From Oligoflexia bacterium (GTDB taxonomy: Bacteria > Bdellovibrionota > UBA1018): a stretch of 43,116 nt of DNA. The notes beneath the pieces are model-generated. The model was not told where the DNA came from. It saw only the letters and a list, made by a program, of their open reading frames with translations, and did not search any database. Location: positions 1 through 43,116 of the forward strand of contig CAIRTR010000048.1 in NCBI GenBank assembly GCA_903881565.1. The letters run 5' to 3'. Shown here piece after piece: positions 18,846 through 43,115 of the stretch (position 1 is the stretch's first letter; each line of letters starts with the position of its first letter). A program made the position numbers and the translations under genes.

Positions 18846-21608
18846 TCAAATAACCCCGATCGAAAAGTGAAACCGGTAAGCATCCTCACCCAGCTGCGGA
18901 TGCACTTTGAACCCCCACTCTGCATTCACAGGTCCGACAGGGGTCTGATAATGAAACCCAAAGCCGGTACTATAACGCAGAATTCCAAGGGGGATCTTAT
19001 CCACATAAATATTGCCCGCATCTATGAAAGGACCGAACCGAACTGCGCCAGAAAACGGAACCTCTAACTGGGTGCGGTAATTAACGTAAGATGTTGTTCC
19101 GACAATGAATTTATCAGATGTATTGATTTCCTGTTCAGCAAAACCGCGAAGGCTCCCCACTCCCCCAAGCGCAAACTGCTTGGCCACAGGAATGCTCCCG
19201 CTTTTGGGATCGTAAATCCCCGTGGCAGGATCAATGACTGGCGCTTCGTTGTTTCGAGCCCAACCAAAGCGGAAGGAAAAAAACCAAGTCACGGACCTGG
19301 ACACGGGTACGAAATAGTCGTTTCGTGACTGAATTCTCCAAAATCCGATAGGGTAAGACTCTCCGTGAGAATAGAGCCAAGGAGCCGAAAGCTCAGTTGT
19401 AAAAACAGAATAGAGCCCCGAGCTCGGACTCAGGGGATCATCTCGCATATCCAGTCTCAAAGAAGGCATTACCGATCCAATGGTCATGTCCCGATTATCA
19501 ATATCCGGGCGAACCTTGGTACGAGCATTGAATTGCTTGATTCGCTCTAGACTATAGGTGAATACGCCCGTCAAATTTGGTTTTCGAACCAGATTTCTCT
19601 CCCACGTCAGCGCCAGCGCGGTACTCAAGCTATCAAAGGTTCTAAATTGATCCTTACTCAGAGTCAGCGTAGGACGAAAAAGCACTTCAGGCAGAACGAA
19701 CCACGGCCAAAGATAAGCCAATTGAACTTGATACTCGGGAAACTCGTAATCAACAAAACGCCAATTTACGCGCCCATTTAACAGCAATGAATGATTATAG
19801 CCCCATAGGTTTGTATATCCAAGCTGACCAAACACACGTAACCCCAGATCGCTTCGAAGACCCGGGCCACCGGCAATAATCCCAGGGGTACCTTCTTGAA
19901 GTGAAATCAACACCGTCTTGCGATCTTTGCTCAGGGTATCCTCGAGCGCCCGAACACTGACGACCGAAAAAATCCCCAAGCGCTTTAATCGTGCGTCGGT
20001 TTCCTTCAACAGCGCATCTGAAAGCACGTCCCCTTCTTTGAAAACAATTTCGTGACGAACCACTTCTTCATGCGTGAGACTCAACCCTTCGATTTCAATT
20101 CGGCCCACGCGAAACTGAGGTCCCTCAGAAACCTCGAGGGCGATCGTTGCGCTTCGATTATCCTCAGAATACAGGACTAAACGATCAGTTCCTTCATTAA
20201 GAATCTGGACCCCTAGATACCCCAGAGCCCGATATTTTGACTTGAGAACGTCTAACCCCTCACTTAACGCATAAAGATTGAGGGGCTCCCCTACGCGAAG
20301 CTTCAGCATTTGATAAAGTTCTTCGTCCAAGAAGCGAGAAACCCCAGAAACCCGAACCTGCTCCACTCGTGTTTGCTCGCCTTCATAGAGGTAAACGACA
20401 AGTTTCACTTTGCTCCCCTGTAAAGAAGTTCTCTTTTGGGGCGGGAAAACCGCCGTAATCGTCACCAACTTTGCCGCAAGATAACCTTGCGACTTCATCC
20501 ATTCGATCACAAGTTCAGCTGTCGCCTGCACATCACGCTCAACATAATAATCATGATCCAAAAGGACGGACGCCTTCTGGGCCCGAGCCCAAAAAATAGA
20601 CTGAAGAGCTTCTTTTGAAAAAATGAGATTGCCATCGAAGTCCAGAGCCTCAATTTTGACCCGAGTGCCTTCTTGAATCAAATAAGTCACATGCCGTTCT
20701 TGAGTTTGGGGTTTTTCAAAGATATAGGGCGAGATTTTCACATGAGCATAGCCCGCAGAATGATATTCCTCCTCCAATCGTAACCGAATGGCTCCGATAT
20801 AGTCAGTCCCGAAGCCTACTTTCCGCTGGGCTTCGATGATTTCCGAAAGCTGAACCGCGGTGAAGGCGACATTTCCCCGAAATCCAAAGCGAACCCGATC
20901 CCCCAGATCCACATGAACAGTGACATCAACCCATCGGGCTGCTCGGTTCCCGATTTTTTCAACCACGGAAAGTACTGAACTTTTTACGCCGATTTCCTCA
21001 ACGCGAGCTCCGACAAACTCCTCTGAGGCAAGAAGATCCTGCACCGATCTTTTACTCGCATTCATGCGCACCTCATCGAAGATTGCTTCTCGCGTGAGGC
21101 CTAAACGCTGGGCCAGCTCCAATTGGATTTTCTCCCAAAAACCAAGAAAATCATCGCCCGTAAGTTTAGCCGCCGAACCCTCCAGGACGAACTCAAACTG
21201 ACGAATACGGGTGGGCAATCCCTCCTCTATTTGAAATTCAAGAACGGACTCAAATTTTCCGGTTTCTGACTTCTTGCGCGACAGTTTAGATTGAATTCTC
21301 ATCTGCTCGTAACCATGAGCCCGATAAAGAGCCTGCAAGTCTTCTGCGGTTCTCACGACTTTACTCCGAATGAGTTTTTCACCTGGGAAGATCTGTAACG
21401 CCGGCTCAATTTCGTTTTGTGCAAAGACGGTAAGCCCCGAGAATTCGAGACGATCGATCTCGACCTTTGAGTCGGGTGAATCGGGTGAGTCGGGTGACTC
21501 ACGAGAGCCTGGAGGTGCTGCAAAGGACAGGGGGGCCATTGATAGCCCGAGTGAAACCCCGAGTAAAACTTGAAAGAGGAAAATCAAGTTCCAAGCCATC
21601 CTCATCAT
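18846..21608 (-). CDS. Omp85/TamA-like outer-membrane assembly protein with about six POTRA repeats
   Basis: A 920-residue protein with a signal peptide (ILFLFQVLLGVS-like region, cleavage near SFAAP). Six POTRA-like segments begin near VEIDRLEFSG, TRIRQFEFV, VRFGFRGNVAF, VKIEALDFDGN, TRVEQVRVSG and FRVGRIEIEG. A C-terminal 16-strand-type barrel has the conserved lid-lock motif GVGSLRGFAEQEI. TamA usually has three POTRAs and BamA five, so this is an unusual form. It lies 3 bp after tamB and probably works with it in outer-membrane protein or lipid export. BamA function cannot be excluded, but the tamB partnership favours a TamA role. Confidence 0.85.
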   Translation of the reverse strand: MMRMAWNLIFLFQVLLGVSLGLSMAPLSFAAPPGSRESPDSPDSPDSKVEIDRLEFSGLTVFAQNEIEPALQIFPGEKLIRSKVVRTAEDLQALYRAHGYEQMRIQSKLSRKKSETGKFESVLEFQIEEGLPTRIRQFEFVLEGSAAKLTGDDFLGFWEKIQLELAQRLGLTREAIFDEVRMNASKRSVQDLLASEEFVGARVEEIGVKSSVLSVVEKIGNRAARWVDVTVHVDLGDRVRFGFRGNVAFTAVQLSEIIEAQRKVGFGTDYIGAIRLRLEEEYHSAGYAHVKISPYIFEKPQTQERHVTYLIQEGTRVKIEALDFDGNLIFSKEALQSIFWARAQKASVLLDHDYYVERDVQATAELVIEWMKSQGYLAAKLVTITAVFPPQKRTSLQGSKVKLVVYLYEGEQTRVEQVRVSGVSRFLDEELYQMLKLRVGEPLNLYALSEGLDVLKSKYRALGYLGVQILNEGTDRLVLYSEDNRSATIALEVSEGPQFRVGRIEIEGLSLTHEEVVRHEIVFKEGDVLSDALLKETDARLKRLGIFSVVSVRALEDTLSKDRKTVLISLQEGTPGIIAGGPGLRSDLGLRVFGQLGYTNLWGYNHSLLLNGRVNWRFVDYEFPEYQVQLAYLWPWFVLPEVLFRPTLTLSKDQFRTFDSLSTALALTWERNLVRKPNLTGVFTYSLERIKQFNARTKVRPDIDNRDMTIGSVMPSLRLDMRDDPLSPSSGLYSVFTTELSAPWLYSHGESYPIGFWRIQSRNDYFVPVSRSVTWFFSFRFGWARNNEAPVIDPATGIYDPKSGSIPVAKQFALGGVGSLRGFAEQEINTSDKFIVGTTSYVNYRTQLEVPFSGAVRFGPFIDAGNIYVDKIPLGILRYSTGFGFHYQTPVGPVNAEWGFKVHPQLGEDAYRFHFSIGVI
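21469..21501 (-). repeat. In-frame 9-bp tandem repeat encoding Ser-Pro-Asp
   Basis: Three full copies plus a partial copy of GAGTCGGGT-type units, encoding SPDSPDSPDS on the minus strand just after the signal peptide of the Omp85 protein. Units differ at one base. The 9-bp period means that slippage would change linker length without shifting the frame. Confidence 0.85.
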
Positions 21609-39151: not shown

Positions 39152-39448
39152 TCACTCATCACCTTTGCGAATTTTCTTGCGACCTTCAAACACTGCCACG
39201 ACCGTGATCGTTTTCTTTTTTGCATCGATTTCGTAAACGATCCGATAACTCCCCTCAATCAACTCGCGCAGATTCTCCTCTTGGTACTCTGGCACAATTC
39301 GGCCGGAGAGAGGAAACTGAGAACTTTGCTTTGCCCGATCAAGGAGAAGCTGAACAAATCGCCTTGCATTTTCAGGAGCGCTCTGGGCAATGAATTCACC
39401 AATCTCGATCAGATCATTCCAAGCGCGAGCCGACCAGATTAGTTTCAT
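39152..39448 (-). CDS. parE: ParE/RelE-family toxin
   Basis: A 98-residue protein: IWSARAWNDLIEIGEFIAQS, FPLSGRIVPEYQEENLRELI, YRIVYEIDAKKKTITVVAVF, EGRKKIRKG. This is the ParE/RelE fold of type II toxins. ParE members poison DNA gyrase and RelE members cut mRNA on the ribosome; LRELIEGSYRIVYEI looks more like ParE. Its start overlaps the antitoxin gene by 4 bp. The stop directly abuts the decayed gene fragment. Confidence 0.92.
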   Translation of the reverse strand: MKLIWSARAWNDLIEIGEFIAQSAPENARRFVQLLLDRAKQSSQFPLSGRIVPEYQEENLRELIEGSYRIVYEIDAKKKTITVVAVFEGRKKIRKGDE

Positions 39449-39747
39449 TTCACTTTTCCAAACCTCTTGTCCAACGCCTGCTCCAAAGCTTTCGTCCCCA
39501 TGACCCTGCCTGCTTTGGCATCAGCGCGGCCCTCATCGACAGCGGTCATGAAGTCTTCTCGTTCTCTTAGGCGATCAAACTCCTCAGGAGTAATCACCAC
39601 AGCAGACGGCTTGCCATTTTGGGTAATCACCACAGACCGTCCCGTTTCATGAAGGGCGTGAAGCACCTTAGACGCCTGCGTCTTAAATAGACTTAACGGA
39701 ATAATATCTTCCGTCACCTGAATATCTCTTCTCTTATACGCCTTCAT
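39445..39747 (-). CDS. Phd/YefM-family antitoxin
   Basis: A 100-residue protein. The N-terminal Phd/YefM DNA-binding domain is TEDIIPLSLFKTQASKVLHA, then RSVVITQNGKPSAVVITPEEFDRL. The C-terminal part (VMGTKALEQALDKRFGK) is the likely toxin-binding helix. It should bind and block the ParE-type toxin encoded downstream and repress their promoter. ATG 39747 has AGG about 10 nt upstream. An inverted repeat 45-75 nt upstream may be its operator or the abiE terminator. Confidence 0.9.
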   Translation of the reverse strand: MKAYKRRDIQVTEDIIPLSLFKTQASKVLHALHETGRSVVITQNGKPSAVVITPEEFDRLREREDFMTAVDEGRADAKAGRVMGTKALEQALDKRFGKVK

Positions 39748-39792
39748 ATACCGAACACCTCAGGTCTAAATATAGCTCTTTTTAAAGATCCT

Positions 39793-39820
39793 GTAAAGGG
39801 TCTGTTTGGTTACCCTCTAC
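39793..39820. promoter_or_regulatory. Inverted repeat between abiEii and the Phd-type antitoxin gene
   Basis: GTAAAGGGT at 39793-39801 and ACCCTCTAC at 39812-39820 pair at 8 of 9 positions around a 10-nt loop. It lies 10 bp after the abiEii stop and upstream of the antitoxin gene. It could be an operator for Phd or a weak terminator; no T-tract follows directly. Confidence 0.4.
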
Positions 39821-39829
39821 GACCTGCAC

Positions 39830-40669
39830 TTATATCTTCGACAGCTTCGCCAAAAAAAACTCACGGCTCCAAAGCGTTCTCAGTTCGGCCGATTTTTCAG
39901 CCTTTAAAAAAGGCGATACATCCTTAAAGGCCTCCGACCACTGCAGAGACGCTATTTTCTCCGACATTTGCTGAACCAACCAAGTGCGATCGACTTGAAT
40001 AGACTGGCCACTCCAAGGACCGTATTGGGCAAGCGCATGCCCCAGCAGAACATAATTTGGTGAAATTCGTTGCGAAATATACCAACTAAAATCATACCAA
40101 TCCCGCCCTTTGACAAACGGGCGACACAGGAGGGCATGAAGCTTGCCAGCAAAGAGAGATCCGAGATCATAAGTTGAAATTGAAAAGTCCGTTGGGAAGT
40201 CGAGAAACTTAACCTCCTGTGCTGCTCCGGCAGGTGGATTGGCATCCACTTCAATTTTGATATTGATCTTCTTTTTTAAGTCGCTCAAATGCCGGAGCGC
40301 AAGCAATCGCTTAATGCTCGAGTCTTTCAAGAACTGAGCTTTCACGTTGCGTTCAGGCTTTTCATTGCCGCCGACTTCAATTTCGTAACCATATACACGC
40401 ATAGCGTGTGCGACCGCTTCTAGATAAGACGTCAACATAAAGTCGGCATCAGGTGACACGAGTGTAAAATCTAAATCCTCAGAGAAGCGATCCAGGCCAT
40501 GCACGATTCGAAGACAGGTCCCACCTTGAAAAACTGCCTTTTCGAAAAATCCACACTTCGCTAGTGCGTAGAGGGCCACCTCTTGGGTGATCTCTTTTAT
40601 GGCGTTTTCCTCTTCTTGAGCATTTTGGGCGTGATAGGATTCTAACTTCTTTTGAATAAGATCCTTCAT
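39830..40669 (-). CDS. abiEii: AbiEii nucleotidyltransferase toxin
   Basis: A 279-residue protein with the AbiEii signature: FQGGTCLRIVHGLDRFSEDL, DF (GG-x-x-R and D-x-D motifs) and the downstream DLGSLFAGKLHALLCRP, then KGRDWYDFSWYI. Family members are type IV toxins that bind GTP or transfer nucleotides and give abortive infection against phages. It starts 10 bp after abiEi. All key motifs are present, so it looks functional. Confidence 0.93.
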   Translation of the reverse strand: MKDLIQKKLESYHAQNAQEEENAIKEITQEVALYALAKCGFFEKAVFQGGTCLRIVHGLDRFSEDLDFTLVSPDADFMLTSYLEAVAHAMRVYGYEIEVGGNEKPERNVKAQFLKDSSIKRLLALRHLSDLKKKINIKIEVDANPPAGAAQEVKFLDFPTDFSISTYDLGSLFAGKLHALLCRPFVKGRDWYDFSWYISQRISPNYVLLGHALAQYGPWSGQSIQVDRTWLVQQMSEKIASLQWSEAFKDVSPFLKAEKSAELRTLWSREFFLAKLSKI

Positions 40670-40679
40670 TTCAACCCTT

Positions 40680-41327
40680 TCATGTCAGTCCCCGCATCAA
40701 TACAACCCGTAAGCGCTCACAACTCTTTTTGCGATAAGCATTCGCCAGGGTTTCGAGTTCGAGATAACTAAATTCTTTCGCAAACCGCTGAAGTTCAGGC
40801 AGATCAATTCGGAGGTCGCTTTGGATTTCTTCAAGGTTCGCATAGACTCGCCTCTTCGCATAAGTGAGATCAAACAGCGCCTTGATCGGGTTTGACATCA
40901 AAAATGATCCACCCTTTGCCCTTATGCTTTCAATGCCTAATCGAAACGCGGCCTCGGGTACTGGGCGGTAAGTAAACTCTCCAAGCGGTGTCGTGTAGAT
41001 CTTGTTTTTCATTTGGGGACAGGTAGAGGTCACTGCATAGACCCCTTCAGGAATCAGTCCATGAAACGACAAAGCCGATTCAAATGAAACCGCGCTGGGA
41101 GAATACAATCGAGCAGCCACAGCATGAAGAGAGAGCGGTCCCTTGCGCATCTTCTCAGAAAAAACGTAGAGTCCACGCCGCACCTTCAACAAGCTCCCTT
41201 GCTTCAACAATCTACTGAGCGCACTGTAAATTGCGCTGGGGCTTAGGCCGCGAAGGACCAGATGCAGGTCGGCATCGTCAAAAACTTCGGCCGGAATTTT
41301 CTCTCGCAATATGGCTAGGTGGCTCAT
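40680..41327 (-). CDS. abiEi: AbiEi antitoxin / transcriptional repressor
   Basis: A 215-residue protein. The N-terminal winged helix (LSPSAIYSALSRLLKQGSLL, KVRRGLYVF) is the AbiEi pattern, followed by the antitoxin domain (AVSFESALSFHGLIPEGVYA, YRPVPEAAFRLGIESI, MSNPIKALFDLTYAKR). AbiEi proteins both neutralise AbiEii and repress the operon by binding inverted repeats. Here the first two bases of the ATG lie at the end of a 21-bp perfect inverted repeat. There is no visible Shine-Dalgarno sequence. Confidence 0.92.
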   Translation of the reverse strand: MSHLAILREKIPAEVFDDADLHLVLRGLSPSAIYSALSRLLKQGSLLKVRRGLYVFSEKMRKGPLSLHAVAARLYSPSAVSFESALSFHGLIPEGVYAVTSTCPQMKNKIYTTPLGEFTYRPVPEAAFRLGIESIRAKGGSFLMSNPIKALFDLTYAKRRVYANLEEIQSDLRIDLPELQRFAKEFSYLELETLANAYRKKSCERLRVVLMRGLT

Positions 41328-41374
41328 AGTTAATCCAGAAACAGTCGTTTTTAGACTGTTTCTGGATTAACTAT
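41326..41374. promoter_or_regulatory. Perfect inverted repeat with 21-bp arms at the abiEi start
   Basis: Arms 41326-41346 and 41354-41374 are perfectly complementary around the 7-base loop GTTTTTA. The inner arm sequence reads AACAGTC...GACTGTT and the outer ends read ATAGTTAATCC...GGATTAACTAT. The outer end includes the AT of the abiEi ATG. In characterised abiE systems AbiEi represses by binding inverted repeats of about 23 bp; this one may also form an mRNA hairpin that hides the start codon. Confidence 0.85.
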
Positions 41375-41434
41375 AACATAAAAATAGCCGGAAACTATTA
41401 AAATTAGACTATTTATGGCAACAACACCGCGTTA

Positions 41435-41463
41435 TTGCATATGAAACAAATACATACTATTCT
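41435..41463 (+). promoter_or_regulatory. Promoter of the Xre/RES pair
   Basis: -35 TTGCAT at 41435-41440, 17-nt spacer, -10 TATTCT at 41458-41463, then AGAGAGG and ATG 41487. It is divergent from abiEi. The arrangement is close to consensus. Confidence 0.6.
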
Positions 41464-41486
41464 TTCAAGTGAAAGAGAGGCTGTTT

Positions 41487-41873
41487 ATGGCACCCGCAAA
41501 AACGGTAACCAGCCCGGACCAGATTAAGAAAGAAGCGGTACTCACAAAAGCAGTGCTTCGTTCAGCCGATCTATTAGGCGTTTCAAGAAAGGAGCTTTCT
41601 CAAATCGTTGGCATCAGCGAGGCCACCCTCTCTCGAATCTACCAAGGCCGATCGGTGATCTCACTTGAAACCAAAGAAGGCGAGGCAGCCTCACAGCTGG
41701 TTCGTATCTACCGCAGCCTCGATACGTTGTTTGGAGGGAAGTCTGAGCTTTGCTCTCGATGGCTAAAGTCTTCAAATGATCATTTGGGCGGAATCCCACT
41801 CAATCTCACTAAAAACATTCAAGGGCTCATTCATGTCGCTGGATATTTGGACGCAATGCGCGCCAAAGTTTAA
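41487..41873 (+). CDS. Xre/MbcA/ParS-type antitoxin (DUF2384)
   Basis: A 128-residue protein. The N-terminal Xre-like helix-turn-helix is LLGVSRKELSQIVGISEATL, SRIYQG. The C-terminal DUF2384 toxin-binding domain is RWLKSSNDHLGGIPLNL, then HVAGYLDAMRAK. This is the antitoxin type that pairs with RES toxins. ATG 41487 has AGAGAGG six nt upstream, preferred over GTG 41469. Its 3' end overlaps the RES gene by 41 bp in another frame. Confidence 0.92.
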   Translation: MAPAKTVTSPDQIKKEAVLTKAVLRSADLLGVSRKELSQIVGISEATLSRIYQGRSVISLETKEGEAASQLVRIYRSLDTLFGGKSELCSRWLKSSNDHLGGIPLNLTKNIQGLIHVAGYLDAMRAKV

Positions 41874-42633
41874 ATTTACCGCATACCTTGGAAAACCTTG
41901 GCGAGTTGTTGAAGCGCAACACATCGTTGCAACGCGAAAGCTCGTCGATAGTGACGAGGAGCAGGCGATCCTCGAAGAGTTGATCGATAAAGCAAAACCT
42001 CCTCTGCCCTACCCGCGACCTCACGACGAAGAGTGCAAGCGCTACCACTATCTTCTTTGGACTCCTTTTCGATACCCCCCCCTAAAGCACGGATCGCGCC
42101 TTGGAAGTTCTGACCGGCGTGGACTTTGGTATGGATCAGAGAAAATTGAAACGGCTTTTGCCGAGAAGGCATACTACGCCTTTCTATTCCGTTCAGGTTC
42201 ACACGCTGATTTTGGCGTCTTCGAAACATCGATCACCGTATTTGCAGCCCAAGTCAAAACAAAGTCTTGCGCTGATTTAACTCGGGCTCCTTTCAATAAA
42301 TTTGAAAAAGACCTCGTGACGCCCAACTCATATACCGCCTCTCAGAGGATCGGCTCAGAACTTCGTGATCGCGGCGCAGAAGTGATTCGATTCAAATCAG
42401 CAAGATGTGCGGAGCACGGATTCAATATCGCGGTCACTAAAATCTCGGCATTTCAAGCTCGCAAACCGGTTGAAGACGGCTCATGGTTTTGCATAAGCAG
42501 CGCCGATACCGTGGAATTCAAACCCTTTGGTCTTCAGGCAATCCAAGTCCCGACCGAGCGCACCGTCTTTAGGTGCACAGATTTTGAACTAGGCGGAAAA
42601 ATTGATTTTCCCCGCTTGGCGCGCCCCCTTTAG
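41833..42633 (+). CDS. RES-domain toxin (NAD+-degrading)
   Basis: A 266-residue protein. The RES core is present with FRYPPLKHGSRLGSSDRRGL, WYGSEKIETAFAEKAYYAFL and a later catalytic-type Ser region (TPNSYTASQRIGSEL). Known RES toxins (MbcT, Res) deplete NAD+. The start ATG 41833 has AAGGG 7 nt upstream. The domain is preceded by about 60 extra residues, which is within the range of longer RES proteins. It ends just upstream of an unusual repeat region. Confidence 0.88.
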   Translation: MSLDIWTQCAPKFKFTAYLGKPWRVVEAQHIVATRKLVDSDEEQAILEELIDKAKPPLPYPRPHDEECKRYHYLLWTPFRYPPLKHGSRLGSSDRRGLWYGSEKIETAFAEKAYYAFLFRSGSHADFGVFETSITVFAAQVKTKSCADLTRAPFNKFEKDLVTPNSYTASQRIGSELRDRGAEVIRFKSARCAEHGFNIAVTKISAFQARKPVEDGSWFCISSADTVEFKPFGLQAIQVPTERTVFRCTDFELGGKIDFPRLARPL

Positions 42634-42701
42634 AATTAAGGGTTTTCTTCGAGTCGAGCGCTTCCATTTGCGCAGTTTTCCATAAAGACTCGCGCCATAA
42701 T

Positions 42702-42797
42702 CACGCTATTCGTTGGAATACCGTGATAATCAACACGTTATTCGTGCGAAAAACGTGAGAAGCGACACATTATTCGTCCCAGTTTCGTGATTGGTTG
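42702..42797 (+). repeat. Three contiguous 32-bp direct repeats
   Basis: Units at 42702-42733, 42734-42765 and 42766-42797 have no spacing between them. Each begins CAC, then TATTCGT at unit positions 6-12, A at 16, and CGTGA at 21-25; 16 of 32 positions are identical in all three. CACG...CGTG at the unit ends makes each unit a 24-bp imperfect dyad with an 8-bp linker. The pattern looks like an iterated protein-binding site; no known family fits. Confidence 0.85.
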
Positions 42798-42829
42798 CAT
42801 AAAACCTAAAACTCCCACCCACACCACCT

Positions 42830-42875
42830 CCCACCCAACTCGAAACTTGTCATGACAAAATTCAAGTAGGGTGGG
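42830..42875. repeat. 46-bp imperfect palindrome
   Basis: Outer arms CCCACCC (42830-42836) and GGGTGGG (42869-42875) share a centre with an inner perfect palindrome TTGTCATGACAA (42847-42858). Over all 23 base pairs, 19 match. It lies 30 nt beyond the stop of the convergent right-edge gene. It could be a bidirectional terminator, but there is no T-tract, so a protein-binding or structured-RNA element is also possible. Confidence 0.8.
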
Positions 42876-42905
42876 AAGAAATCAGGGCACTTAACGAAGC
42901 GGCGT

Positions 42906-43115
42906 TCAATAATCCAACCCAAACACCGCCACATGCTCCGTCTGTGTTCGAACCCGGCCCGCGGAATCCACATACAGCGCCCCGCCTTGCGGATCCCGCG
43001 CTGGGAACTGTTTGGACTTTGAGTACTCGCGATTTACCTGATCCAAGAATTGGCCGAGTTCCAGTGAACGAATCTGCTCCTGCAGCTGCGCTTTAACGCG
43101 ATCATCTTTTTCAGA
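42906..43115 (-). CDS. 3' end of an unknown gene (start outside window)
   Basis: The minus-strand frame is open from the right edge to TGA 42908-42906 and gives 69 residues: a charged helix (DDRVKAQLQEQIRSLEL), FLDQVNREYSKSKQFP, and a C-terminus with GGALYVDSAG and ending EHVAVFGLDY. I recognise no family. The last 30 bases are repeated, with three changes, at 39074-39103 as part of a decayed homologue. Coding is supported by the conserved reading frame between the two copies. Confidence 0.7.
   Translation of the reverse strand, partial: SEKDDRVKAQLQEQIRSLELGQFLDQVNREYSKSKQFPARDPQGGALYVDSAGRVRTQTEHVAVFGLDY

Follow-up and report, generated by a model that had tools for sequence, protein, structure and literature searches.

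The three tandem units that begin at position 42702 of the window (the whole stretch of Oligoflexia DNA that was analysed, 43,116 nucleotides) are very probably the orphaned control region of an AAA_14/DUF4143 ATPase gene that was cut after about 30 codons by an Xre-RES module. A remnant of the ATPase gene lies directly past the array on the minus strand and its remainder has been replaced by Xre-RES, which argues that the array is the upstream region left behind by the broken gene. Units that match those of the window are found before intact DUF4143 genes elsewhere, and direct repeats of the same or nearly the same pitch are common upstream of this gene family.

The array and the gene remnant beside it

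The features at this end of the window are the following, in order of position.

41433-42599, plus strand: Xre-RES module block, with 90% DNA identity to a second copy on contig C323
41469-41873, plus strand: open reading frame of an Xre/MbcA/ParS-type antitoxin
41776-42633, plus strand: open reading frame of a RES-domain toxin, likely start at 41833; the DUF4143 remnant is overlapped in antisense by its final ~11 codons, which differ from the C323 copy
42599-42601, no strand: junction of Xre-RES and the DUF4143 remnant; the match to the C323 copy stops at 42599, that to DUF4143 at 42601
42601-42698, minus strand: N-terminal remnant of an AAA_14/DUF4143 (PDC-S01) ATPase gene, found by tblastn and profile; it reads ...SLYGKLRKWKRSTRRKPLILKGARQAGK, then unrelated sequence and a stop
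42702-42726, minus strand: array unit 1, nearest the broken gene; plus-strand sequence CACGCTATTCGTTGGAATACCGTGA
42734-42758, minus strand: array unit 2, CACGTTATTCGTGCGAAAAACGTGA; 22/25 against the Legionellales site and 21/25 against the C7 and C305 sites
42766-42790, minus strand: array unit 3, CACATTATTCGTCCCAGTTTCGTGA
42829-42876, no strand: inverted repeat with 24-nt arms, 83% complementary, without a loop, between the array and the convergent next gene; possibly a terminator
42906-43115, minus strand: C-terminal end of a gene found in a few same-family relatives, the right-hand neighbour of the array, cut at the contig end

An earlier note on this DNA had described three exact 32-bp units that abut without spacers. 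Their starts at 42702, 42734 and 42766 do give a spacing of exactly 32 bp, and the shared motif, CAC-N2-TATTCGT-N8-CGTGA, was recovered by a pattern search with 0 mismatches in all three units. The units are not exact copies, however, since their pairwise identities are 24/32, 19/32 and 18/32, and only the period and the 15 motif positions are the same in all of them. Likewise, they abut at the 32-bp period, but the part that is repeated covers about 25 bp and the remaining 7 bp of each unit form a variable spacer, therefore the conserved end of the array lies at 42790. The array is the top-scoring tandem repeat of the whole window (score 89), and its self-match at offset 32, the highest at that offset, reaches 42 of 57 positions compared to a window mean of 14.3 (sd 3.5), which is 8 sd over the mean. 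It also passes the direct-repeat threshold used below (period 32, best window 16/20). In addition, the window carries an imperfect palindromic unit of ~24 bp with CAC...GTG edges (CACGTTATTCGTGCGAAAAACGTG), comparable to the units of loci L133, L162, L165 and L166, and unit 1 forms a 15-nt inverted repeat. An RNA element or a tRNA was rejected as the identity of the array, as Rfam gave 0 matches in the window and ARAGORN gave none. Elsewhere in the window, a nine-base tandem repeat of 3.3 copies (21468-21497) is found in a long open reading frame, where it encodes a repeated Pro-Asp-Ser near the N-terminus.

The gene remnant was detected when 67 DUF4143 proteins were compared to the window with tblastn, and the stretch from 42690 to 42601 on the minus strand was found to be 68% identical over 28 amino acids to a Legionellales DUF4143 protein (E=2.5e-7). 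Many other members of the family match the same stub, and a home-made DUF4143 profile recognizes it with an E value of 2.9e-8. The stub covers the family's N-terminal part as far as the Walker A lysine, beyond which unrelated residues lead to a stop; it holds neither a complete AAA nor a complete DUF4143 domain, and no further DUF4143 match that could represent the rest of the gene was found in the 43-kb window. An ATG at 42698-42696, 3 nt from unit 1, sits at the expected start site, but in another frame than the conserved stretch. The DUF4143 gene is thus broken by truncation, plus a frame shift near its start if that ATG was the start. The array occupies the position just 5' of the DUF4143 start site in the correct orientation, hence the earlier statement that it does not lie in an obvious promoter needs correction on the minus strand, where it directly precedes the truncated ATPase reading frame.

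On the other side of the stub, the similarity to the C323 copy is lost at 42599, which makes the junction sharp. The Xre-RES module abuts the stub, and the C-terminus of the C323 RES copy differs from that of the RES protein in the window. That second copy lies at 18796-19575 of contig C323 (L152), and a search of 357 other genomes from the phylum gave no match to it at E <= 1e-10. The array lies 3' of RES, the C323 homology stops before it, and the 3' end of the second Xre-RES copy carries no such array. The window array is no part of the Xre-RES module, and its association with the RES toxin, by which the earlier note had placed it, is an accident of position; its proper owner is another gene, broken and encoded on the other strand. 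The array helps to recognize a gene that was destroyed when a toxin-antitoxin module replaced the rest of its sequence. Three toxin-antitoxin-type pairs, Phd/ParE, AbiEi/AbiEii and Xre/RES, are clustered by the array at 39152-42633.

Matching sites and a 32/33-bp pitch upstream of DUF4143 genes

The earlier note had proposed a search for further copies, and had named a lack of other copies in the genome, together with a lack of array conservation in close relatives, as the outcome that would tell against a dedicated element. Further copies do exist. Matching sites were found on two more contigs of the same genome, C7 and C305, and at one Legionellales locus, in all cases before intact DUF4143 genes. 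At C7 and C305, a strong promoter directly before the ATPase gene is bracketed by two units that point towards each other, an inverted pair and not a direct array, and the promoters (TTGAAA-16-TATAAT at C7, TTGACA-16-TATAAT at C305) are overlapped and flanked by the sites. The C7 protein contains AAA_14 and DUF4143 domains, and the C305 protein is 83% identical to it. Array conservation, on the other hand, was not seen in relatives from the phylum, where single scattered matches of the motif, and no arrays, occur in 17 other genomes, compared to about nine with the reversed pattern; a site conserved across the phylum was rejected on these grounds. Single one-mismatch sites at contigs C25 and C206, with no DUF4143 match nearby, were taken as chance occurrences, and viral contigs contained no direct pair of the motif.

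When the two-unit pattern at 32-bp spacing was sought in 257 Gb of genome contigs, it occurred in only two places. One is a direct array in a Legionellales genome, immediately 5' of a DUF4143 gene (L133). The other, from a Chlamydiae MAG, has two units and precedes a gene that resembles an M24 peptidase, an identity that was read from the translation and not from a library match. The Chlamydiae array (L063, 1519-1577) is very like that of the window and lies a few tens of nucleotides 5' of the peptidase-like gene; no trace of DUF4143 was found near it, and it is a second orphan array.

The window units were also compared to 85 DUF4143 upstream regions. The Legionellales gene L133 gave the best match (22/25), followed by C305 and C7 (21/25 each) and then by L107, L105 and L106, while the maximum of the shuffled-unit null was 18. 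Since the stub, too, finds its best protein match in L133, the array and the stub point, at the level of sequence similarity, to the same gene by two measures.

To see the array in the context of the family, upstream regions of DUF4143 genes were taken from this genome, its phylum, the two pattern-scan genomes, plasmids of six phyla and viral contigs, and direct repeats were called at a self-match of at least 16 of 20 positions, a threshold that we set after seeing examples in the first set. Among the first 67 upstream regions, offset 32 was found in five and offset 33 in seven, with at most one at any other offset, and about zero shuffled regions passed. The two sets collected later form the fairer test, because the threshold postdates the examples in the first set, and they contained repeats in 11/18 and 12/17 upstream regions, fractions that describe regions gathered by protein similarity to one clade and not a sample of the whole family. 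Taken over all sets, 32- or 33-bp direct repeats are present in 34 of 102 non-redundant DUF4143 upstream regions, with the start codons of many of these genes assigned mechanically. Offset 32 passes in 13 of them and offset 33 in 22, harmonics appear at 64-66 and 99, and any one unrelated offset passes in at most 2 of the 102. Most passing regions have two units and nine have three or four by a simple count. Only three of 151 control upstream regions pass, and none of these is independent of DUF4143-type arrays, as two are such arrays reached from an adjacent gene, and the third is the Chlamydiae array that the pattern scan had retrieved. These comparisons of upstream sequences show that, in several phyla, the 32/33-bp direct-repeat pitch is both frequent before DUF4143 genes and specific to them.

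About two thirds of the DUF4143 upstream regions fall below the threshold; many of these have a single long palindrome at the promoter, and some have nothing. Many units are ~24-bp palindromes whose edges are A/T-rich or read CAC...GTG and whose centre varies, although palindromic units are absent from some DUF4143 arrays. The unit sequences are gene-specific and differ between genes even within one genome. Furthermore, array similarity tracks protein similarity (Mantel r 0.31, 0/999 permutations), as is partly expected from common descent.

The ATPase family and a possible mode of control

PADLOC assigns the C7 and Legionellales proteins to PDC-S01 with E values below 1e-160. PDC-S01 is a widespread defence candidate with a putative function in phage defence. 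In a 2026 survey it is the fourth most common defence across all prokaryotes and is described as an ATPase fused to a PD-(D/E)XK domain, and experimental validation is stated to be pending for most such candidates (PMC12988326). The main text of that survey is silent on repeats (direct or inverted), palindromes and operators (PMC12988326). The open-access papers that mention DUF4143 or COG1373 do not deal with upstream repeats, judged by their titles and abstracts, and no open-access paper was found to mention PF13635. The earlier remark that no element of this form had been described agrees with the open-access literature, in which no description of such arrays was found.

An AlphaFold2 model built with 17 sequences (pLDDT 89, pTM 0.89) supersedes a first model of pLDDT 47. 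Its best match among solved structures is the archaeal AAA+ protein SSO1545, and the weaker matches, which are partial (TM ~0.3), include Orc1/Cdc6 initiators bound to origin DNA; searches by sequence gave no convincing solved relatives. A winged helix is predicted from helices 231-249 and 266-278 and strands 282-288 and 299-308 of the model, together with the fold matches. In the nuclease-like part, E341, E365, E380 and K382 are invariant in alignments A3 and A4.

The likeliest mechanism is that the ATPase acts on its own array and controls its promoter. Each ATPase would bind its own gene-specific tandem array, probably via the winged-helix region, with one protomer or dimer per unit, and the oligomers would stack every three helical turns on one face of the DNA. 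The bound ATPase would then repress or gate its own promoter. The earlier note's general guess of protein-binding sites phased at three helical turns and possibly regulatory fits the evidence in this respect, except that the owner of the sites is the broken ATPase gene. The purpose of such control may be nuclease restraint, invader sensing or self-recognition.

A further-reaching reading is put forward tentatively, as a possibility. PDC-S01/DUF4143 genes could make up a very large family of single-gene elements, each an ATPase-nuclease with a private address of two to four palindromes at 32/33-bp pitch, read by their own winged helix, which would serve as an autorepressing switch or a self-identity mark. 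If so, the nuclease would stay off until look-alike sites on an invader, or the loss of the array, release it, and protein and array would co-evolve into many mutually blind pairs per genome. A tandem array predicts DNA binding by the ATPase, and also at which site it would bind and with what oligomer geometry, namely a unit for every three turns of the helix. A gene-specific array of fixed pitch before many members of the family offers a concrete handle on PDC-S01.

Alternative explanations and known systems

The array could still be a working control element, either bound by the intact C7 and C305 paralogues or regulating RES itself or antisense transcription that enters the RES gene at its 3' end. 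The agreement of window units with the C7 and C305 sites noted above, the intact motif positions in three of three units and the orientation of the array towards the RES 3' end are consistent with this. However, the gene that the array faces is cut and frame-shifted, no good sigma-70 promoter was called at the array, a terminator-like stem separates the array from the upstream RES gene and the second Xre-RES copy lacks such an array, which together make a working element unlikely. Most likely, the window array is a relic that no longer controls an intact gene, though it might still serve the C7 and C305 proteins as a binding site. It is likewise improbable that a separate widespread regulator, such as a CRP-like protein, binds the sites in place of the ATPase. 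The sequence GTGA-N6-TCAC, which the C7 and C305 sites have in their middle, speaks for such a regulator, but the units vary by gene within one genome and track ATPase divergence, which argues against it because a shared regulator would give one shared motif. In addition, the period is found in very different phyla, with DUF4143 as the common factor.

Direct repeats spaced by whole helical turns are typical of iterons, and the window array has this form; the earlier note had considered partition or recombination sites. All of these are very improbable, since no Rep, Par or recombinase was found among nine nearby window proteins scanned with Pfam, the matching units elsewhere precede ATPase genes, and the array is not kept in relatives. 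The draft state of the genome (323 contigs) and the distance of only ~320 bp from the array to the contig end would be compatible with an assembly artefact, yet an artefact or a chance repeat is scarcely credible given the strength of the self-match and an independent Legionellales genome with the same unit, spacing and gene association. Chance was rejected as the origin on the self-match statistic and the shuffled-unit null.

The preferred reading, an orphaned control region of a PDC-S01 gene, can be set beside several known systems. Like members of PDC-S01, the stub has the N-terminus of such a protein, and the matching units at C7, at C305 and in Legionellales precede DUF4143 genes; unlike them, the window retains the ~30 codons and the upstream array only. 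Plasmid iteron arrays, the sites of Rep proteins, are similar in that short direct repeats with a fixed whole-turn period lie beside the gene of the putative binder. They differ in that no Rep gene or origin was found near the window array, and where DUF4143 genes have repeats, these are particular to the individual gene and lie over its promoter or before it. The operators of autoregulated toxin-antitoxin systems likewise place palindromic sites across a defence-type gene's promoter, whereas DUF4143 is one gene and no antitoxin-toxin pair, with two to four tandem units at 32/33 bp, and the window array does not serve the neighbouring Xre-RES pair as operator. Orc1/Cdc6, which binds origin DNA, and SSO1545-type AAA+ proteins with a winged helix are among the best solved-structure matches of the predicted DUF4143 fold, but the identity is 12-14%, the fold match is partial and the DUF4143 protein has a nuclease-like C-terminal part.

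The 4.6-Mb genome studied here contains 49 DUF4143 matches, many of which have different upstream palindromes or repeats, so that cross-talk between self and non-self arrays is directly testable in this one genome. On contig C108, two divergent DUF4143 genes (L043 and L046) seem to share an intergenic region that contains a palindrome with arms of ~22 bp.
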